A stretch of DNA of 24,155 nt from a virus: positions 1-24,155 of the IMG/VR virus record IMGVR_UViG_3300002835_001069; one strand, 5' to 3'. This document shows, piece by piece, positions 1,284-8,238 of the stretch; position 1 is the stretch's first letter; each line of letters starts with the position of its first letter. The notes beneath the pieces are model-generated. The model saw nothing but the letters and a program-made list of their open reading frames with translations, was not told the origin of the DNA and searched no databases. A program made the translations under genes and the position numbers.

Positions 1284-2792
1284 ATGGCTTATAGCCGTCC
1301 AGGCGTTTACATCAGTGAACGTCTTCTACCATCAGCAATCCCTGCTGGCGTTAGCGCCGATGCTGCTGGTGCCGTTGTTGCTACATTTGCACAAGGTCCA
1401 GAAGCAACAACGCTTGTTACTTCATGGTATGAATTTACCAAATATTTTGGTGGATACAATGCCTCATATCCAGCGACATTCCAAGTTGGCTCATTCTTCG
1501 CCAATGGAGGTCGTGAACTTTACGTAAAACGATTACTAGCAGCAGATGCTGTAAAGGCTGACGTCAATCTAGTTGATAGCGGAAGTGCTGCTCAAGTAGA
1601 AGTTTTAGCAAAGAATGCGGGAACTGATGGAAACAACCTTCGTGTTGTTCTTGAAGCAGGACAAGTGTCTGGAACATACACCCTGACCCTATACAAAGAG
1701 TCTGGAGCATCAGGAATTTCTGATGACATTCTATTAGAACGTTATGAAAACATCGTTTTTGATGACGATACTTCAAGCGATTATGCTGAAACCGTTATCA
1801 ACGTAGTTTCGCCAAACATCACTGTGACAGTAGACGGAGGATACGCAGGACAGACCATCACTTCTGCAACCTACCCACTAACTGGGGGAAGTAATGGAAC
1901 TACTCCAACTTCTGCAGACTACTTAACTTACAAGGGAGGAACTTCTTCAGTTTTTGAACGATTCTCAACTTTAGAGCGTCCACTTGTAATCTTTTTGCCA
2001 GATGCTAACGTGTTGGCTTCAGGTACTGCTTCAGTCTACGATGCAGCATCTTCTTGGTCTGAAGAACACAACGGCTTTGTAGTTGTTGACACAGATGCAG
2101 ACCTAACTGTTCTTCAAGCAATTTCATTTGCTGCCAGCCTAACAGATACTAGTAATGCTGCTGTCTACTACCCACACTTCTACACCTCTGACCCACTAGG
2201 TCGTGGTTCAGGTGCATTGCGTAGAATTGGTCCAGCAGGTGCAGTAGTTGGGCTTTACCTTACAACTGATGCAACACGTGGCGTATTTAAGGCTCCAGCA
2301 GGTATTGGAACTCAGGTTCTAGGTGCTGTAGCAATGGACCGCACATTTTCTTCAACTGAACTTGACTCTATGAACGCATCTACTTCTCCAATTAATCCGA
2401 TTCGTCAGATTCCTGGTGCAGGACTTTCAGTAATGGGAGCACGTACCCTCAAGCAAGATGGAACAGCAAACAAGTATGTAAACATGCGTCGTTCGCTAAT
2501 CTACATCCGAAAGAACCTAAAGAATCTCACAGAGTTTGCAATCTTTGAAAACAATGATGAGCGTCTCTGGGCACAGGTTCGTACATCGCTAACAGCATTC
2601 CTCTCTGAGTATCGTAACCAGGGTGGACTTCGTGGAGCAACCAACGCACAAGCATTCTTTATCAAGTGCGATGGAGAAAACAACACCACGACATCGATTG
2701 CAAATGGAGAAGTAAACATTCAGGTCGGTGTTGCTCTCCAGTATCCAGCAGAGTTCGTTGTCATTGACCTAAGTCAAAAGACAGCAAACTAA
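1284..2792 (+). CDS. Contractile tail sheath protein
   Basis: A 502-residue sheath subunit, which polymerises around the tail tube and contracts to drive the tube through the host envelope. The N-terminus MAYSRPGVYISERLLPS is the classic 'PGVYI.E' opening of phage sheaths. The C-terminal domain (about residues 368-500) holds the conserved core: the IPGAGLSVMGARTL strand, a VNMRRSLIYIRKNLKN segment, FENNDERLWAQVRTSLTAFL and, near the end, the strand YPAEFVVIDLSQ. The middle (about 90-300) is a variable, Ser/Thr-rich insertion domain. A clean AGGAG ribosome site at 1275-1279 precedes the ATG. It is followed by the tube gene, the usual order. This gene alone makes the phage a contractile-tail type. 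Confidence 0.95.
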   Translation: MAYSRPGVYISERLLPSAIPAGVSADAAGAVVATFAQGPEATTLVTSWYEFTKYFGGYNASYPATFQVGSFFANGGRELYVKRLLAADAVKADVNLVDSGSAAQVEVLAKNAGTDGNNLRVVLEAGQVSGTYTLTLYKESGASGISDDILLERYENIVFDDDTSSDYAETVINVVSPNITVTVDGGYAGQTITSATYPLTGGSNGTTPTSADYLTYKGGTSSVFERFSTLERPLVIFLPDANVLASGTASVYDAASSWSEEHNGFVVVDTDADLTVLQAISFAASLTDTSNAAVYYPHFYTSDPLGRGSGALRRIGPAGAVVGLYLTTDATRGVFKAPAGIGTQVLGAVAMDRTFSSTELDSMNASTSPINPIRQIPGAGLSVMGARTLKQDGTANKYVNMRRSLIYIRKNLKNLTEFAIFENNDERLWAQVRTSLTAFLSEYRNQGGLRGATNAQAFFIKCDGENNTTTSIANGEVNIQVGVALQYPAEFVVIDLSQKTAN

Positions 2793-2812: not shown

Positions 2813-3418
2813 ATGCCAACAATTATCAATAATCGGTCGACGCTTATCACTGACCCGTTACGTAACTTTAGGTTCTTGGTAACCTTTATCCCACAGGACA
2901 ACAACAACACAACTCTCAATGGGTTGAAGTCAGCAACCTTTGGATTTACGTCGGTATCAGGTATGTCGGTGACGACAGACTCTATCCCTTATCGTGAAGG
3001 TGGTTACAACACCACAGTCCACCAGATTCCTGGTCAGACAACTTTCACACCAATCACTCTGCAACGTGGTGTCCTTCTTGGCTCTAAGCAGAACTGGGAT
3101 TGGATGCGTAATCTCTTCTCAACAGTTGCTGGTGGCGGTTCATTACGAAGCGTCTCTCAGAACTTTCGTTGCGACCTAGAGATTCAAGTCTTATCTCACC
3201 CAATCCCTGCAGCCTCCGATGCTGCTGGTGATAACGCATCAACCACTGACCACACAGCAATGCGTTTCCACGTGTACAACGCATGGCCAACAGCAGTGGC
3301 ATACTCTGACCTCAATGCAGGTGACAACGCACTATTCGTAGAACAGATGTCTTTGGTTCACGAAGGGTTCGATGTTAACTGGGCTCCAAACCTAACCACA
3401 AACGCACCAGACTTCTAA
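2813..3418 (+). CDS. Tail tube protein (T4 gp19-like)
   Basis: A 201-residue protein that forms the inner tail tube. The N-terminus contains DPLRNFRFLVTFIP, the typical 'dPl..frF.V.i' opening of gp19-like tube proteins. It is followed by FGFTSVSGMSVTTDSIPYREGG, matching the 'F..VsGl......yreGg' pattern, then TTFTPITLQRGVLLGSKQNWDWM, matching the 'itLkRG...d...w.w' pattern. The C-terminal strand (VEQMSLVHEGFDVNW) is the usual ending. An AAGGAGA ribosome site lies 8 bases before the ATG. It sits between sheath and assembly chaperone, as expected. Confidence 0.92.
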   Translation: MPTIINNRSTLITDPLRNFRFLVTFIPQDNNNTTLNGLKSATFGFTSVSGMSVTTDSIPYREGGYNTTVHQIPGQTTFTPITLQRGVLLGSKQNWDWMRNLFSTVAGGGSLRSVSQNFRCDLEIQVLSHPIPAASDAAGDNASTTDHTAMRFHVYNAWPTAVAYSDLNAGDNALFVEQMSLVHEGFDVNWAPNLTTNAPDF

Positions 3419-3429
3419 AAGGAATATAA

Positions 3430-4236
3430 ATGACGAAAACAATTAGTGCAGCGGTTAATCCCGCATTGGCAAACAACCTTATTCAACAGGCTATGGCTGA
3501 AACAAAGCCAGAACAGTCAGAAGTAAAAATCATTCCTCCTTCGGATAACGTAGTGACTCTCCCTGGCGGCTACATCAACGCCGCTGGGGAGGTCATTACT
3601 GAGGCAGAAGTGCGGGAATTAACTGGCGCTGATGAAGAAGCAATCGCAAAAGCGTCTGATGTAGGGCGTGCTCTATTAATCATTCTGCAAAGAGGAACAG
3701 TAAGAATTGGTGAAGAAAAAGCCACAGAAAAAATTCTTGACCAACTTCTTTCAGGAGACAGAGACACTCTTCTCCTTGCAATTTTCAAAGCAACATTTGG
3801 ACATAGTACGGAAGTTCCTGTGTTTTTTGGAAATGAGTTAAAACAAGTAGAAGTAGACCTTGACAAAGAAATTAAATTTAAAGTTCTTGTAGATTCAATT
3901 AATGACCGTGTTTTTACCGTAAAAGGAAGAAAACATGAGTACACCGTGCAACTACCAACAGGAGTTGCGCAAAAAGAAATGATTTTAAATTCAGACAAAA
4001 CTTCGGCTGAGTTAACAACGATTATGCTTGAGAATACCGTAATGCAAATTGACGGTTCTCCAGTATTGACAAAACAACAAGTGAGAAACCTAGGACTGGT
4101 GGACCGAAAAGCAATTGTTGATGAAATTAATTCACGCATTCCTGGTCCTCAATTCGACGACATTACTGTGGAAGACCCCGACACGGGAAAAGAGGTACTA
4201 GTTCCCGTTAATTTCGGGACCTTATTTCGATTCTAG
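3430..4236 (+). CDS. Tail assembly chaperone / gp26-like baseplate-hub family protein, zero-frame product
   Basis: A 268-residue protein. It opens with a low-complexity stretch; about residues 38-70 read VVTLPGGYINAAGEV and EVRELTGADEEAIAK, then comes GDRDTLLLAIFKATFGHSTE (about 109-128). This resembles the T4-type gp26/baseplate-hub family, in which 'lP..G..y', 'vRemtg.de' and 'DrdyLl.alRi.tyG' occur in that order. That family normally continues with a Cys-rich zinc ribbon; here the matching part (VPVFFGNELKQVEVDL) has no cysteine. The position between tube and tape measure is that of tail assembly chaperones, which hold the tape measure during tail assembly. It ends at TAG 4234-4236, but a second frame continues (see 4229-4384). 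I am sure it is a tail-assembly gene, less sure of the exact family. An AAAAGGAAT ribosome site precedes the ATG. Confidence 0.75.
   Translation: MTKTISAAVNPALANNLIQQAMAETKPEQSEVKIIPPSDNVVTLPGGYINAAGEVITEAEVRELTGADEEAIAKASDVGRALLIILQRGTVRIGEEKATEKILDQLLSGDRDTLLLAIFKATFGHSTEVPVFFGNELKQVEVDLDKEIKFKVLVDSINDRVFTVKGRKHEYTVQLPTGVAQKEMILNSDKTSAELTTIMLENTVMQIDGSPVLTKQQVRNLGLVDRKAIVDEINSRIPGPQFDDITVEDPDTGKEVLVPVNFGTLFRF
4222..4230 (+). promoter_or_regulatory. Probable +1 programmed ribosomal frameshift site
   Basis: The zero-frame codons here are TTA TTT CGA, then TTC TAG. A Phe-tRNA on TTT (4225-4227) can re-pair on TTC (4226-4228) by moving one base forward. The next codon is then GAT (4229-4231), which enters the open +1 frame. 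CGA is a slow codon in many bacteria and the zero-frame stop is two codons away; both favour slipping. The -1 frame closes almost at once (TAA at 4239-4241), so a -1 shift would not give a long product. A -2 shift would also reach the open frame, but I see no good re-pairing for it. Weak hairpins are possible downstream (AGCAC 4250-4254 with GTGCT 4274-4278). Confidence 0.6.
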
Positions 4237-4384
4237 TGTAACCCCTTACAGCACACTGCTTTCAGAGTGGACAGTGCTTACAGGAGAGTACAGAGGATGG
4301 ACATTAACGGAGATAAAGGGCTTATCTCCTAGAGAACGTAAGAACTGGATAGAGATAGCCAGTCATTTGAGTAGAAAGGATTGA
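4229..4384 (+). CDS. Frameshifted C-terminal extension of the tail assembly chaperone (GT-like)
   Basis: This frame is open from 4202 to the TGA at 4382-4384. From 4229 it encodes 51 residues, including SEWTVLTGEYRGWTLTEIKG and LSPRERKNWIEIASH. This is well-formed, Trp- and charge-rich coding sequence in a stretch that would otherwise be a 151-base gap in a genome with hardly any gaps. It has no ATG and no ribosome site. The only candidate own start is a GTG at 4274, which would cut off its front. Joined at TTT-C, the fusion would be about 317 residues. Known tail chaperones (lambda G/GT and relatives) are made in the same way just before the tape measure, mostly by -1 shifts. A sequencing error that split a single gene is the main alternative. 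Confidence 0.65.
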   Translation, partial: DSSVTPYSTLLSEWTVLTGEYRGWTLTEIKGLSPRERKNWIEIASHLSRKD

Positions 4385-4387
4385 TAA

Positions 4388-6919
4388 ATGGCAAACAAAA
4401 TGCTGTCAAATATTCAATCCTTGACTAGTGGCGTTTCAACACTGACCCAAAAAGTAAATGAACTCTACGCTGCCGTTGAAAAAGTATCTGGAGTTACCGA
4501 AGGGGTTGTTGGTGGCGTTCAGGGAATGCTCAAAACTAATGGCGGTGGAGCGCACCTAGCCACCGCTACTACTCGACCAGGAACTGGAGCCGATGGTGCT
4601 CGTTTTGCTGCTGGTACAGGCGCAATGCCTACCTATCAAAACATGCAAAACAATATGGCTAAGTTCTCTACTCCACTTCCAGGAGCAGGGTTTGGTGGTG
4701 GTGGAAGTTCAGTAAGTACATCGATGTTGGCGGTTGCTGGAGGAATGTCTCCAGGAAGAGTTGGAGCAGCGAACATCCTCGGTGGTCTTGGTCAGATTGG
4801 TTTTGGTCTTGCTGCTGGTGCTTATGCTGCGACTCCACCACTTGACTTAACTCTTAGTCGTTCTCTTGGGTATTACCAGGCAGGACTTACTATGCCTGGA
4901 ATTAGTCGTTCAAGTTTGCAACGTGCAACGTTTAGTGCATTGGGAGGCGGACTTTCTAGCGTTGGTTCTGACGCACTAGTGTCTGCAATCCTGGCTGGAC
5001 GAGGAGTTGGCGGAGGTGCTGGTAGCGCTGACTACCTAAAACTTACTAGTGAAGTCGGTAACGCTTACAAATACTTAGGAATGGAGAATGCTCCTGCAGC
5101 ACAAGCATTAGCAGGACTTCGTTCTGGTCCAATGGCTGCAAACCTGTATCAGTACGGAATTACTACATACGATTCACAAGGCCGTATGCGTGGAACAGGC
5201 GACATTGCCCGTCAATTAATGGAAAGAGTTACTGCTGGACGTGGGTTCAGTAATGTTGAATCTTTAAATCAATCTTTCTATAGAGGATTTTTAGGTGCCA
5301 ACCTAAGAACTATGGGATTTGATGAAGCGCAACAGACGATGCTTCTCCAATCAATGCGTGACATCACAATGGGTGGAACAGGTGACTTGTCTACTTCTAA
5401 ACCATTAGGTGATAACCAAAACACAATGCTCACATCTCAAGGACGCTTAAATGCATCACAGACAGAGTTAATGCTTAGAGGCGAATCCTCAATGTTAAAA
5501 GGATTTGAAAACGCTGCTGACACAGTTGAGACTTTTAATAGAGCATTACTGGAAGTGATTGAGCCACTTGGATACCTAAAAGGACTTATTTCAGGTGTTG
5601 CGGGAACGAACGCTGGACAAGGGCTTGCAACTGCTGCACCAAGCGTATTTGGTGGAATAAAGAAGACAATTATTGGTGGATTACTCATGGCTGGTGGCGC
5701 GGGACTTGCTGCCACTGGATTTGGTGCAATTCCTGGTGCTGCACTTGCTGGTGCAGGTCTTGGAGTAGCACTTGGTAGTGGTAGTCCAGGCTATGGTGCT
5801 GGATTTAACGCGTCTACAACCACAAAACAAAAGAGTGGCTCTCTAGTAACTGCAGGATTTGGAGCAAAAAGTAATACTGGAATTTGGGCTTCTACCAATG
5901 GTGTTCATAAGGGCATGGACTACGAAATGCCTATTGGCTCTCCCGTGGTGGCGGCACTTAGCGGTGTTGTATCCAGTGTAAATCCAGGAACTGATTATGG
6001 AACAGGCGTTGTTGTAGACCACGCAAATGGTTTACAGACAGTATATGGGCACTTAAGTCAAAAGAACGTTAACGTAGGTGACTACGTATCTACAGGACAA
6101 AGGCTTGGCCGTTCTGGTGCAAGTGGAAACGTAACTGGTCCACACCTACACTTTGAAGTACGAAAAGGAAACAACAATCCAGTAGACCCATCTCTTATTT
6201 CTAATGCTGGAGGAATCGACCCAACTTCTTTATACAAATCACAAAAGAGTTCTTCCTACTTAACAACATCTACCAGTTCTACGTCTAACTCATACGCAAG
6301 TGATGTTACCTACGTAGGTATGCAGGGAACTAAAAAGGAGGCAGAATGGGCAAGAGATTTGTTAAGTTCTTTAGGAGCACCTCACTCTGACTCAAACATT
6401 TCAGCAATAACTACTTGGATGCGATTTGAAGGTGGTGGAGGAAAAGTAACTGGAATTGGTGCTAACTCTGCTATGTACAATCCTCTAAACACAACTTTAG
6501 ACCGCCCTGGTGCCACAGCAATGAATAGTGTTGGAGTAAAGAGGTATTTATCTTGGGAACAAGGGATGAACGCAACCGTCTCTACATTATTAGGCAATAA
6601 AGCCTCTGATAGAGGGTACACATCTATAGTTGATGCCTTACAGAGCGACGCTGGTGTCTCCGCTATTTTGGGTGCAGTCAACAACTCTGCATGGCGTTCT
6701 GGAAAAGTAAACGACCCTGGGTACAAATTTCCAACAGGTGGTGGTTCTGTAGGTTTTGGAGCATCCTTCTCAAGTCCGCAAACCAGTTCAGGTGATAGAA
6801 ATGTTTACATTACAGTGAAGTATGATTCTGCTGACTCGGCTGCTGCAGTAAAACTGGCAAAAATGGTAGAGGGGTACCTAAAGAACGGTGCCAACAACTC
6901 AGCAATTGGAGGTTCATGA
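4388..6919 (+). CDS. Tape measure protein with M23 peptidase and lysozyme-like domains
   Basis: An 843-residue protein that should set tail length and cut cell-wall peptidoglycan on entry. The N-terminus (about 1-50) is a short coiled-coil-like stretch. Gly/Ala/Ser-rich sequence follows, with a hydrophobic segment at about 425-460 (IIGGLLMAGGAGLAATGFG), common in tape measures. Residues about 480-605 form an M23 (LytM-like) endopeptidase with a full active site: H507 and D511 (HKGMD), H555 (YGHL), H586 and H588 (HLHFEV). Residues about 650-770 form a second domain with WARDLLSSLGAP, TTWMRFEGG (possible catalytic E681), MYNPLNTT, VGVKRYLSWEQGM and NNSAWRSGK, which resembles lysozyme/transglycosylase-like domains of tail proteins. 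An AAAGGA site precedes the ATG. It follows the chaperone, the standard order. Confidence 0.88.
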   Translation: MANKMLSNIQSLTSGVSTLTQKVNELYAAVEKVSGVTEGVVGGVQGMLKTNGGGAHLATATTRPGTGADGARFAAGTGAMPTYQNMQNNMAKFSTPLPGAGFGGGGSSVSTSMLAVAGGMSPGRVGAANILGGLGQIGFGLAAGAYAATPPLDLTLSRSLGYYQAGLTMPGISRSSLQRATFSALGGGLSSVGSDALVSAILAGRGVGGGAGSADYLKLTSEVGNAYKYLGMENAPAAQALAGLRSGPMAANLYQYGITTYDSQGRMRGTGDIARQLMERVTAGRGFSNVESLNQSFYRGFLGANLRTMGFDEAQQTMLLQSMRDITMGGTGDLSTSKPLGDNQNTMLTSQGRLNASQTELMLRGESSMLKGFENAADTVETFNRALLEVIEPLGYLKGLISGVAGTNAGQGLATAAPSVFGGIKKTIIGGLLMAGGAGLAATGFGAIPGAALAGAGLGVALGSGSPGYGAGFNASTTTKQKSGSLVTAGFGAKSNTGIWASTNGVHKGMDYEMPIGSPVVAALSGVVSSVNPGTDYGTGVVVDHANGLQTVYGHLSQKNVNVGDYVSTGQRLGRSGASGNVTGPHLHFEVRKGNNNPVDPSLISNAGGIDPTSLYKSQKSSSYLTTSTSSTSNSYASDVTYVGMQGTKKEAEWARDLLSSLGAPHSDSNISAITTWMRFEGGGGKVTGIGANSAMYNPLNTTLDRPGATAMNSVGVKRYLSWEQGMNATVSTLLGNKASDRGYTSIVDALQSDAGVSAILGAVNNSAWRSGKVNDPGYKFPTGGGSVGFGASFSSPQTSSGDRNVYITVKYDSADSAAAVKLAKMVEGYLKNGANNSAIGGS

Positions 6920-8238
6920 TGTCTAGCCATAAAGATTACAAAGAACGTCTTAACAAAATTAAAGAAAGAAACGCACAAAAAGAAGACAATCGTAAAAGAG
7001 AAGCACGTGTAAAAGAGTTGCAAAAAAAGCGTGCCTTAATTCAATCTCAGGCTGACCGATTGTACGACCAGTATGAAGAACAGAATAACGCAGTTAAAAC
7101 AATCAGCAAAGCGATTGCTGTAGAAACTGACCCTGCAGTAAAGGAAACTCTTAAAGACAACAGAGCCATTACTGCAAATGCTAGAGACCAAATTTACGAT
7201 AAGTGGAAGATTCAAGACAACAGGTCTAAAGAGATAACAACTAAGATAAACGCTCTTAAGAAAAAGAAGTCATCTTCTAAATCGACATCTTCTCCTTCTT
7301 CTTCGTCCTCAAAACCAGCAGGTCCATCAGTCCAATCAAACGGTGGAAAGGTCAAGTTTCCGTACAGGTACAACGCTCCATTAATTCGAAATGCGTACTT
7401 TAATCCAACTAGCATCACCTCTACTTCACTTGACAAATTAACTATTAACTATTCGGCGTATAACACCGCACGTGATGCTTGGAAAAATGCAAAACCTGCA
7501 AAAGGTGCTGTTCAAATGGACAAAGAGATAGTTAAAGACCAGTTAAAGGGTTTAGCAAAAGACACTCCTAATACAAAAATTGACCCTCAACTGTATGGGT
7601 TTAGGTTTCTCTACAATCCAAAGGAAGTCACTATGGGTTGGGCTACACAAGCCCAGGTAGACCCACAGTTTATCCCGCAAGATGAGGCTCTTCCAGTGTC
7701 TACGGGACTCACTGCTGCTTCTGTAGACTTTACATTAGTGTTAAATCGTATCGAAGATATGAATTACTTAAATGAAAATGGGTTAACCTCACAAAGCCTA
7801 AAGAGAACACAACTTGAATCTGGACCACTTGTAGACGTAGACCCTGCACAAAGAGTTGCAAGACAACAAGCAGGATTTGCTTCGGCATTTCCTTACCCAG
7901 ATGCTGTTGCAATTGAAGATATGAAAGATATCTACAAAAAAGGAACCATGCATGACCTTGAGTACTTGTTTAAAGTGCTACATGGCCCTGCAGGAACGTT
8001 TAAAAATAATTTTGGCATAACAACCTCAGACTGGGCATACCTGCGCCTCTCCATAGTTGAATTGCATTTAGGCGATGGAATGAGGTACAAAGTAATGATT
8101 GACAGCGTAAACGTTAACCATACAATTTTTAACGACAGAATGGTCCCTATATTTTCAACAGTTCGCTTAAGTTGTCGTAGACTTCTTGATTATCCAAGTC
8201 AAAACCTTTCTGTAACACAGCCAGGAAGGACCTCATAA
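6916..8238 (+). CDS. Baseplate / tail-tube junction protein
   Basis: A 440-residue protein. Residues 1-120 are highly charged and coiled-coil-like (KERNAQKEDNRKREARVKEL). Next comes a Ser/Lys/Pro linker (about 115-145), then a globular part. That part holds YGFRFLYNPKEVTMGW, TAASVDFTLVLNRIED, and near the end LRLSIVELHLGDGMRYKVMI with NVNHTIFNDRMVPIFSTVRL. The 'F.yNP.ev' strand and the closing beta strands resemble tube-initiator and baseplate proteins that sit between the tube and the hub (XkdP or T4 gp48/gp54 type). The next gene encodes a LysM-like domain that in XkdP is part of the same chain. The start is ATGATG overlapping the tape-measure stop; GGAGG at 6908-6912 is better spaced for the ATG at 6919. 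Confidence 0.65.
   Translation: MMSSHKDYKERLNKIKERNAQKEDNRKREARVKELQKKRALIQSQADRLYDQYEEQNNAVKTISKAIAVETDPAVKETLKDNRAITANARDQIYDKWKIQDNRSKEITTKINALKKKKSSSKSTSSPSSSSSKPAGPSVQSNGGKVKFPYRYNAPLIRNAYFNPTSITSTSLDKLTINYSAYNTARDAWKNAKPAKGAVQMDKEIVKDQLKGLAKDTPNTKIDPQLYGFRFLYNPKEVTMGWATQAQVDPQFIPQDEALPVSTGLTAASVDFTLVLNRIEDMNYLNENGLTSQSLKRTQLESGPLVDVDPAQRVARQQAGFASAFPYPDAVAIEDMKDIYKKGTMHDLEYLFKVLHGPAGTFKNNFGITTSDWAYLRLSIVELHLGDGMRYKVMIDSVNVNHTIFNDRMVPIFSTVRLSCRRLLDYPSQNLSVTQPGRTS

Follow-up and report, generated by a model that had tools for sequence, protein, structure and literature searches.

A predicted +1 frameshift in a T4-type phage tail assembly chaperone gene, probably promoted by an upstream Shine–Dalgarno-like motif and hairpin

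Tail chaperones and +1 frameshifting

The tail chaperones of bacteriophage T4 are reported to be gp26 and gp51 (Vladimirov, Gautam and Davidson 2022, as cited in PMC10885494), and T4 is the stated exception to the G-T rule (PMC5009743). According to the account relayed in PMC10885494 of work published in 2022, some T4-like phages carry short and long copies of the chaperone instead of a frameshift.

Well-conserved +1 frameshifts are few in bacteria and phages, and the mode of their stimulation is debated. In bacterial prfB (RF2), an internal Shine–Dalgarno (SD) sequence is located about 3 nt from the slip site CUU-UGA. A review from 2016 goes no further than to say that +1 shifting is “perhaps” stimulated by structure on the 5′ side (PMC5009743). 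In the consulted portions of two further reports, engineered upstream hairpins stimulated +1 shifting in yeast (PMC3639245) and on 70S ribosomes, in the latter case to about 60% of the SD effect (PMC6321510). These portions describe artificial constructs and name no natural phage example, and upstream hairpins that stimulate +1 shifting were found in the literature in engineered tests only. Hairpins are also part of the split ribosome sites of T4 genes 38 and 25, where they shrink the SD spacing from 22 to 5 nt and from 27 to 11 nt, respectively (PMC3014915).

The locus described here resides in a metagenomic virus record (IMG/VR record IMGVR_UViG_3300002835_001069), of which a stretch of 24,155 nucleotides, termed the window, was analyzed. 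The proposed reading, to which a probability of roughly 0.88 is assigned, is that a tail assembly chaperone (TAC) gene of the T4 type is expressed as two forms through a +1 slip at UUU-C, and that the slip is probably promoted by an SD-like motif and a hairpin.

The locus and its reading frames

All features of the locus are on the plus strand. The 0-frame open reading frame (ORF; 3430..4236) encodes 268 amino acids, the putative short form of the chaperone, which is T4 gp26-like and belongs to the PF12322 family. Its 3′ end reads TTA TTT CGA TTC TAG. The candidate +1 slip site, TTT C (4225..4228), is where the Phe-tRNA would re-pair from UUU to UUC, and the next 0-frame codon is CGA. The remaining 0-frame tail, CGA TTC TAG (4228..4236), consists of two sense codons and the stop. 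In the +1 frame, an extension of 51 amino acids (DSSVTPYST...GWTLTEIKGLSPRERKNWIEIASHLSRKD) occupies 4229..4381, with its stop codon at 4382-4384.

The original prediction had placed the 0-frame stop at 4236 after TTT CGA TTC TAG and an open +1 frame at 4202-4384; these coordinates all check out. When TTTC is read as a single Phe step, the added piece comprises 51 residues without an ATG and the joined product 317 residues, as had been claimed. The −1 frame is indeed closed by TAA at 4239-4241, so that an extension of the lambda type, produced by a −1 shift at a heptamer, is not found in the window. An Rfam search returned no match.

Conservation of the junction and the extension

A search with the 0-frame protein retrieved 80 viral contigs, and profile searches retrieved several hundred more. 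In total, 468 loci were processed, of which 458 had a usable junction; 270 of these were distinct, and they formed 123 clusters when grouped at 80% identity across 180 nt. The +1 continuation proposed for the window recurs across all of these junctions, far more consistently than chance would allow. TTT occupies the slip position in 123/123 clusters, with C as its 3′ neighbor in 117 and the T of an immediate stop in six (TGA in three, TAA in two and TAG in one). TTT accounts for 377 of the 648 Phe codons in the same genes (58%, with TTC at 42%), which gives its invariance a log10 p of about −29 if the clusters are taken as independent. Every cluster has between zero and three sense codons between TTT and the 0-frame stop. 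Other slip sites in the overlap were considered and rejected; the CCC at 4204, for instance, is not conserved (locus L005 has CCG).

The extension lies in the +1 frame in all 123 clusters. It ranges from 44 to 83 residues in length and invariably retains the signature [WYF]..L..[ED]R. Its pairwise dN/dS in the +1 frame is 0.20, 0.15 and 0.14 in clades A, B and C, respectively, compared with about 1.0-1.2 in one of the alternative frames and 2.0-2.3 in the other. The extension is conserved as a protein (dN/dS 0.14-0.20) rather than drifting freely, and in these comparisons purifying selection is confined to the +1 frame.

As the window derives from a metagenomic record, a sequencing error or a decayed gene could in principle produce such a break. 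The comparison with relatives refutes both explanations. The same break is present in 458 loci from independent assemblies and complete isolate genomes, no close relative carries the gene in a single frame, and the extension is under purifying selection. Both of the outcomes that the original prediction had named as refuting it were checked, and each was decided in its favor.

The +1 frame could also be entered through a −2 shift, a mechanism employed by phage Mu (PMC5009743) that leads to the same frame. This route is highly improbable, since in nearly all clusters it would require the tRNA-Phe to pair anew with UGU or UAU, with a mismatch at the middle position. In contrast, the +1 step always offers re-pairing from UUU to UUC or UUU in the P site, in every cluster.

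Among isolated phages, the Streptomyces phages BRock, LuckySocke, Alone3, GiJojo and pSt2308 match the 0-frame protein at 35-38% identity. The junction in these five phages reads CTG TTT CGC/CAG GAA CTC TAA/TGA. In BRock, LuckySocke, Alone3 and GiJojo the extension has been annotated as a hypothetical protein of its own, and in pSt2308 it is unannotated. BRock and its allies share the arrangement with Bacillus phage SP-15, and the annotations of all of them are without a frameshift.

These annotations raise the question of whether the +1 ORF is instead an independent small gene that has a start of its own, reached by reinitiation or through a split ribosome site formed by the SD and hairpin, with no fusion being made. 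A separate ORF was drawn by the annotators of the four Streptomyces phages, a separate gp51-like gene is annotated in KVP40 and in cyanophages, and T4 gene 25 is initiated from just such an SD-hairpin site, located where gene 26 ends (PMC3014915). An independent start is nonetheless improbable. In 44 of the 123 clusters there is no ATG, GTG or TTG in the first half of the extension, and a +1-frame start codon occurs near the reach of the SD-hairpin in only 16. The rarity of start codons where the SD-hairpin would act makes initiation an unlikely purpose for it. Furthermore, in every cluster the +1 frame runs through the invariant TTT without a stop, and a separate gene would not require TTT-Y to be conserved. 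Judging from the comparative sequence, a +1 frameshift at this site is very likely real.

The same junction, as TTT CGC or TTT CTC, was also observed inside assembled Streptomyces, Saccharothrix and Nonomuraea genomes (loci L462-L468). These occurrences point to prophages or phage-derived tail elements.

Identity of the protein

The gene order at the locus is sheath, T4-type tube, chaperone gene and, directly 3′, a tape-measure-like gene with an M23 domain. The tail sheath protein (1284..2792) matches PF17482 and phrog_23, and the tail tube protein (2813..3418) belongs to the T4 gp19 family (PF06841, 9.9e-27). The tape-measure-like protein (4388..6919) contains a Peptidase_M23 domain (PF01551, 4.9e-30) and matches phrog_10030, tail length tape measure.

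PF12322 (T4_baseplate) matches 25/25 members of the group A1, with a best value of 4.7e-12. The protein of the window itself scores 15.9 bits, under the cut-off of 24.5. The same family matches both T4 gp26 (residues 1-206 of 208) and T4 gp51 (residues 1-201 of 249), which leaves a C-terminal piece of gp51 beyond the match. The profile of the extension aligns with the set of gp51 C-termini over 24 columns, a match of moderate strength (hhalign E 3e-5, probability 73.5), in which the extension side reads YRGWTLTEIKGLSPRERKNWIEIA. The profile of the 0-frame family matches T4 gp26 alone weakly (hhalign probability 9.6), and the link to gp26 therefore rests on Pfam.

A search of the PDB by sequence gave no match. 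The AlphaFold2 model of the 0-frame protein alone has a pLDDT of 85.8, and its PDB match of best probability is 2ob9, the HK97 tail assembly chaperone (probability 0.91, TMt 0.55, E 0.5). In BFVD, the model matches T4-like hub proteins, that of SP-15 among them. It was observed that most relatives have two CxxC pairs in the 0-frame protein, resembling a zinc ribbon, which the protein of the window does not have.

The tail chaperone identity put forward in the original prediction is supported by the gene order, the PF12322 family, the gp51-like extension and, tentatively, the fold match to the HK97 chaperone (E 0.5). The gene can be assigned to the T4 gp26/gp51 type of TAC, and its product would act as a chaperone. 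This identity is known territory, whereas the +1 frameshift of this branch is unannotated in the examined records. The link to T4 gp26/gp51 had been overlooked, and so had two elements on the 5′ side of the slip codon, an SD-like motif and a hairpin.

The SD-like motif and hairpin upstream of the slip codon

The SD-like GAGGU of the window (4192..4196) ends 28 nt 5′ of the slip codon and is recognized by a bias of the underlying Glu codon to GAG. The predicted RNA hairpin (4200..4222) pairs 4203-4207 with 4215-4219, in addition to 4200-4201 with 4221-4222. In the following, the first T of TTT is numbered 0, and comparisons are made with synonymous-codon shuffles.

The Glu codon at −33 is GAG in 25/25 clusters of clade A, 36/36 of clade B and 15/15 of the Streptomyces group, that is in 76/76 overall. 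The share of GAG in the gene bodies is 35%, 36% and 55%, respectively (p 3e-12, 1e-16 and 1e-4). Where a Lys occupies the SD position, it is encoded by AAG in 6/6 cases. This codon bias keeps the motif (A)GGAGGU or GAGGU at −35..−29.

Directly 5′ of the slip codon, the region −30..−1 folds with a mean minimum free energy of −7.6, against −3.5 for the synonymous shuffles, with a mean z of −1.93 over the 123 clusters. Of the 30 segments further 5′, the nearest, which overlaps the hairpin, averages a z of −0.94; as far as −210, the remaining ones have values from about −0.7 to +0.1. The signal is strongest in clade B (z −3.40), followed by clade A (−1.65), the Streptomyces group (−1.58) and clade C (−0.54). 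Individual clusters reach a synonymous-shuffle p<0.05 in 80% of cases in clade B, 31% in clade A and 53% in the Streptomyces group. No consistent signal of downstream structure was found from 0 to 120 nt 3′ of the slip with simple folds, a method that does not cover pseudoknots.

The window belongs to clade A, in which the stem −24..−18 / −11..−5 (4201-4207 / 4214-4220 in the window) is paired in 87.9% of cells, compared with at most 58.5% for slid registers. The covariation score of this stem is 0.305, against 0.179 for shuffles (0/500 reach the observed value) and at most 0.147 for slid controls. The pair −19/−10 joins two third codon positions and is seen as GC, UA, AU and CG; parsimony on the tree gives eight double changes, of which six preserve pairing. 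Within clade B, two registers, CCGCUA/UAGCGG and CUGCCA/UGGCAG, alternate via coordinated synonymous codon changes. As a consequence of this alternation, no covariation is found there in one fixed register, and the support for the clade B hairpin comes from the folding energy and the coordinated codon switching. A stem-length test gave no significant case in the Streptomyces group. The hairpin of the window itself (−7.9 kcal/mol, z −1.97, synonymous-shuffle p 0.10) is weakly significant when taken alone.

The two elements tend to occur together. Both are present in 87 clusters and neither in 18, with 13 and 5 discordant (Fisher 2e-9, a value not corrected for relatedness). The SD-to-slip distance is about 28 nt when unfolded, and folding of the hairpin would shorten it to mostly 4-11 nt (range 2-13).

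It could be argued that the frameshift is real but that the SD and hairpin arise as a side effect of protein constraint or common ancestry, the slip being driven solely by TTT-C together with a slow next codon or a nearby stop. Clade C (e.g., L209, L159 and L176) retains TTT-C and the extension in the absence of the SD-like motif and hairpin, and these elements are thus not essential. The relatedness of the clusters means that the p values are overstated, and the hairpin of the window is weak. On the other hand, the folding signal survives shuffles that preserve the amino acids, the hairpin signal falls on synonymous third positions with four types of pair, and GAG is found at every one of the SD sites. 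The genes of the window also contain 28 other in-frame occurrences of TTT-C, which indicates that TTT-C alone is probably insufficient. Reading the SD and hairpin as by-products is accordingly possible but rather unlikely; from the sequence comparisons, their role as a stimulator is probable in the clade of the window and in most related clades.

The proposed mechanism

Most ribosomes would terminate at 4236 to give the short form of 268 amino acids. A fraction would slip one base forward, with the tRNA-Phe on the UUU at 4225-4227 re-pairing with UUC, to give the long form of 317 amino acids. In the proposed sequence of events, the ribosome passes the SD and the stem before UUU reaches the P site. 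Once UUU occupies the P site, the SD could pair, and the hairpin could refold close to the E site, to the rear of the ribosome. The resulting strain may help the tRNA-Phe to step from UUU to UUC. The SD and hairpin would in this way place duplex RNA beside the E site, much like the internal SD of prfB. As a point against the proposal, CGN in the A site is not a rare codon in every case.

If the two products act like G and GT of lambda, the tape measure may be coated by many copies of the short form, and a few of the long form may recruit tube subunits. The natural series of junctions with and without the SD-hairpin, and with a sense or a stop codon after UUU, makes the question of stimulation directly testable in reporters.

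The wider family and T4

Distant relatives with a +1 extension behind TTT include SP-15, SagM-GXN1, LR756508, Mel-JY01 and immuto, and probably LIS04. A different arrangement was read from the sequences of Bellamy, S-SKS1, S-TIM4, ACG-2014g, HTVC008M, phiM7, Aeh1, YB07, KVP40, Atu_ph07, Desulfovibrio phage 7757 and a Lysobacter MAG, in which a −1 extension lies behind T_TTT_TTY. The −1 frame is open across the heptamer in these 12 genomes, and some of them additionally contain an ATG from which a separate gene could start. This suggests −1 frameshifting in relatives of T4.

In the 12 T4-like or related genomes (loci L479, L480, L481-L487, L489, L478 and L469), the heptamer is located directly before the gp26-like stop, with the gp51-like piece annotated as separate or missed. 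The locus L475 (LR756511) has an extension-like piece in the −1 frame and no clear slippery heptamer at the gene end.

In T4 itself (L474), gp26 (5803-6429) and gp51 (6480-7229) both match PF12322, with gp51 having the additional C-terminal piece that resembles the extension. T4 gp26 and gp51 thereby become connected to frameshifted chaperones, the long form of which has been missed by the examined phage records.

Comparison with known systems

A similar layout is found in lambda gpG/gpGT (PMC5009743), where the gene likewise lies 5′ of the tape measure and gives both a short product and, through a frameshift near the 3′ end, a longer one. The shift in lambda is −1 at a heptamer, whereas the one proposed here is +1 at UUU-C. 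The short protein here belongs to the larger T4_baseplate family, with no sequence similarity to gpG shown. With T4 gp26/gp51, the short part shares its Pfam family, and the extension resembles the gp51 C-terminus. T4 uses two genes, reportedly without a frameshift in the sources consulted, whereas both forms would here be produced from one gene by the +1 shift.

Shifts of +1 in phage structural operons have been described for cps and tsh of the Listeria phage PSA (PMC5009743). These are capsid and tail shaft genes that slip at a CCC-U proline codon, with a downstream pseudoknot or stop as stimulator. The haloarchaeal myovirus HSTV-2, a contractile phage, has a probable +1 shift at the tail-chaperone position (PMC5009743, PMC8211752). 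It differs in its archaeal host, and the comparison made here covers the direction of the shift and the gene position.

The bacterial prfB gene shares an internal SD 5′ of a +1 slip codon, and its CUU-UGA is resembled by the six clusters in which TTT directly precedes the stop. Here, the SD is about 28 nt away with a hairpin in between, and the A-site codon is usually sense. In the window, neither the 3-nt SD spacing nor a direct stop is found, the SD ending 28 nt away and CGA following TTT.

The arrangement of the SD and hairpin recalls the elements of T4 genes 38 and 25. The element of gene 25 is located at the end of gene 26, the homolog of the gene described here, in the same place as the SD-hairpin. 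The T4 hairpins serve initiation at AUG, whereas a slip codon without a start codon is found at this locus. The engineered hairpins (PMC3639245, PMC6321510) are similarly placed a few nucleotides 5′ of the slip codon and, from what the consulted portions describe, mimic an internal SD on 70S ribosomes.

On balance, a natural +1 element consisting of SD, hairpin, 4 to 7 nt and UUU-Y, in which the hairpin would carry the internal SD to the slip codon, appears to extend across most of a large phage lineage. The need for two forms of the chaperone would then be met by +1 frameshifting in this lineage, while many T4-like relatives probably rely on −1 frameshifting at U_UUU_UUY and T4 itself has a pair of gene copies.
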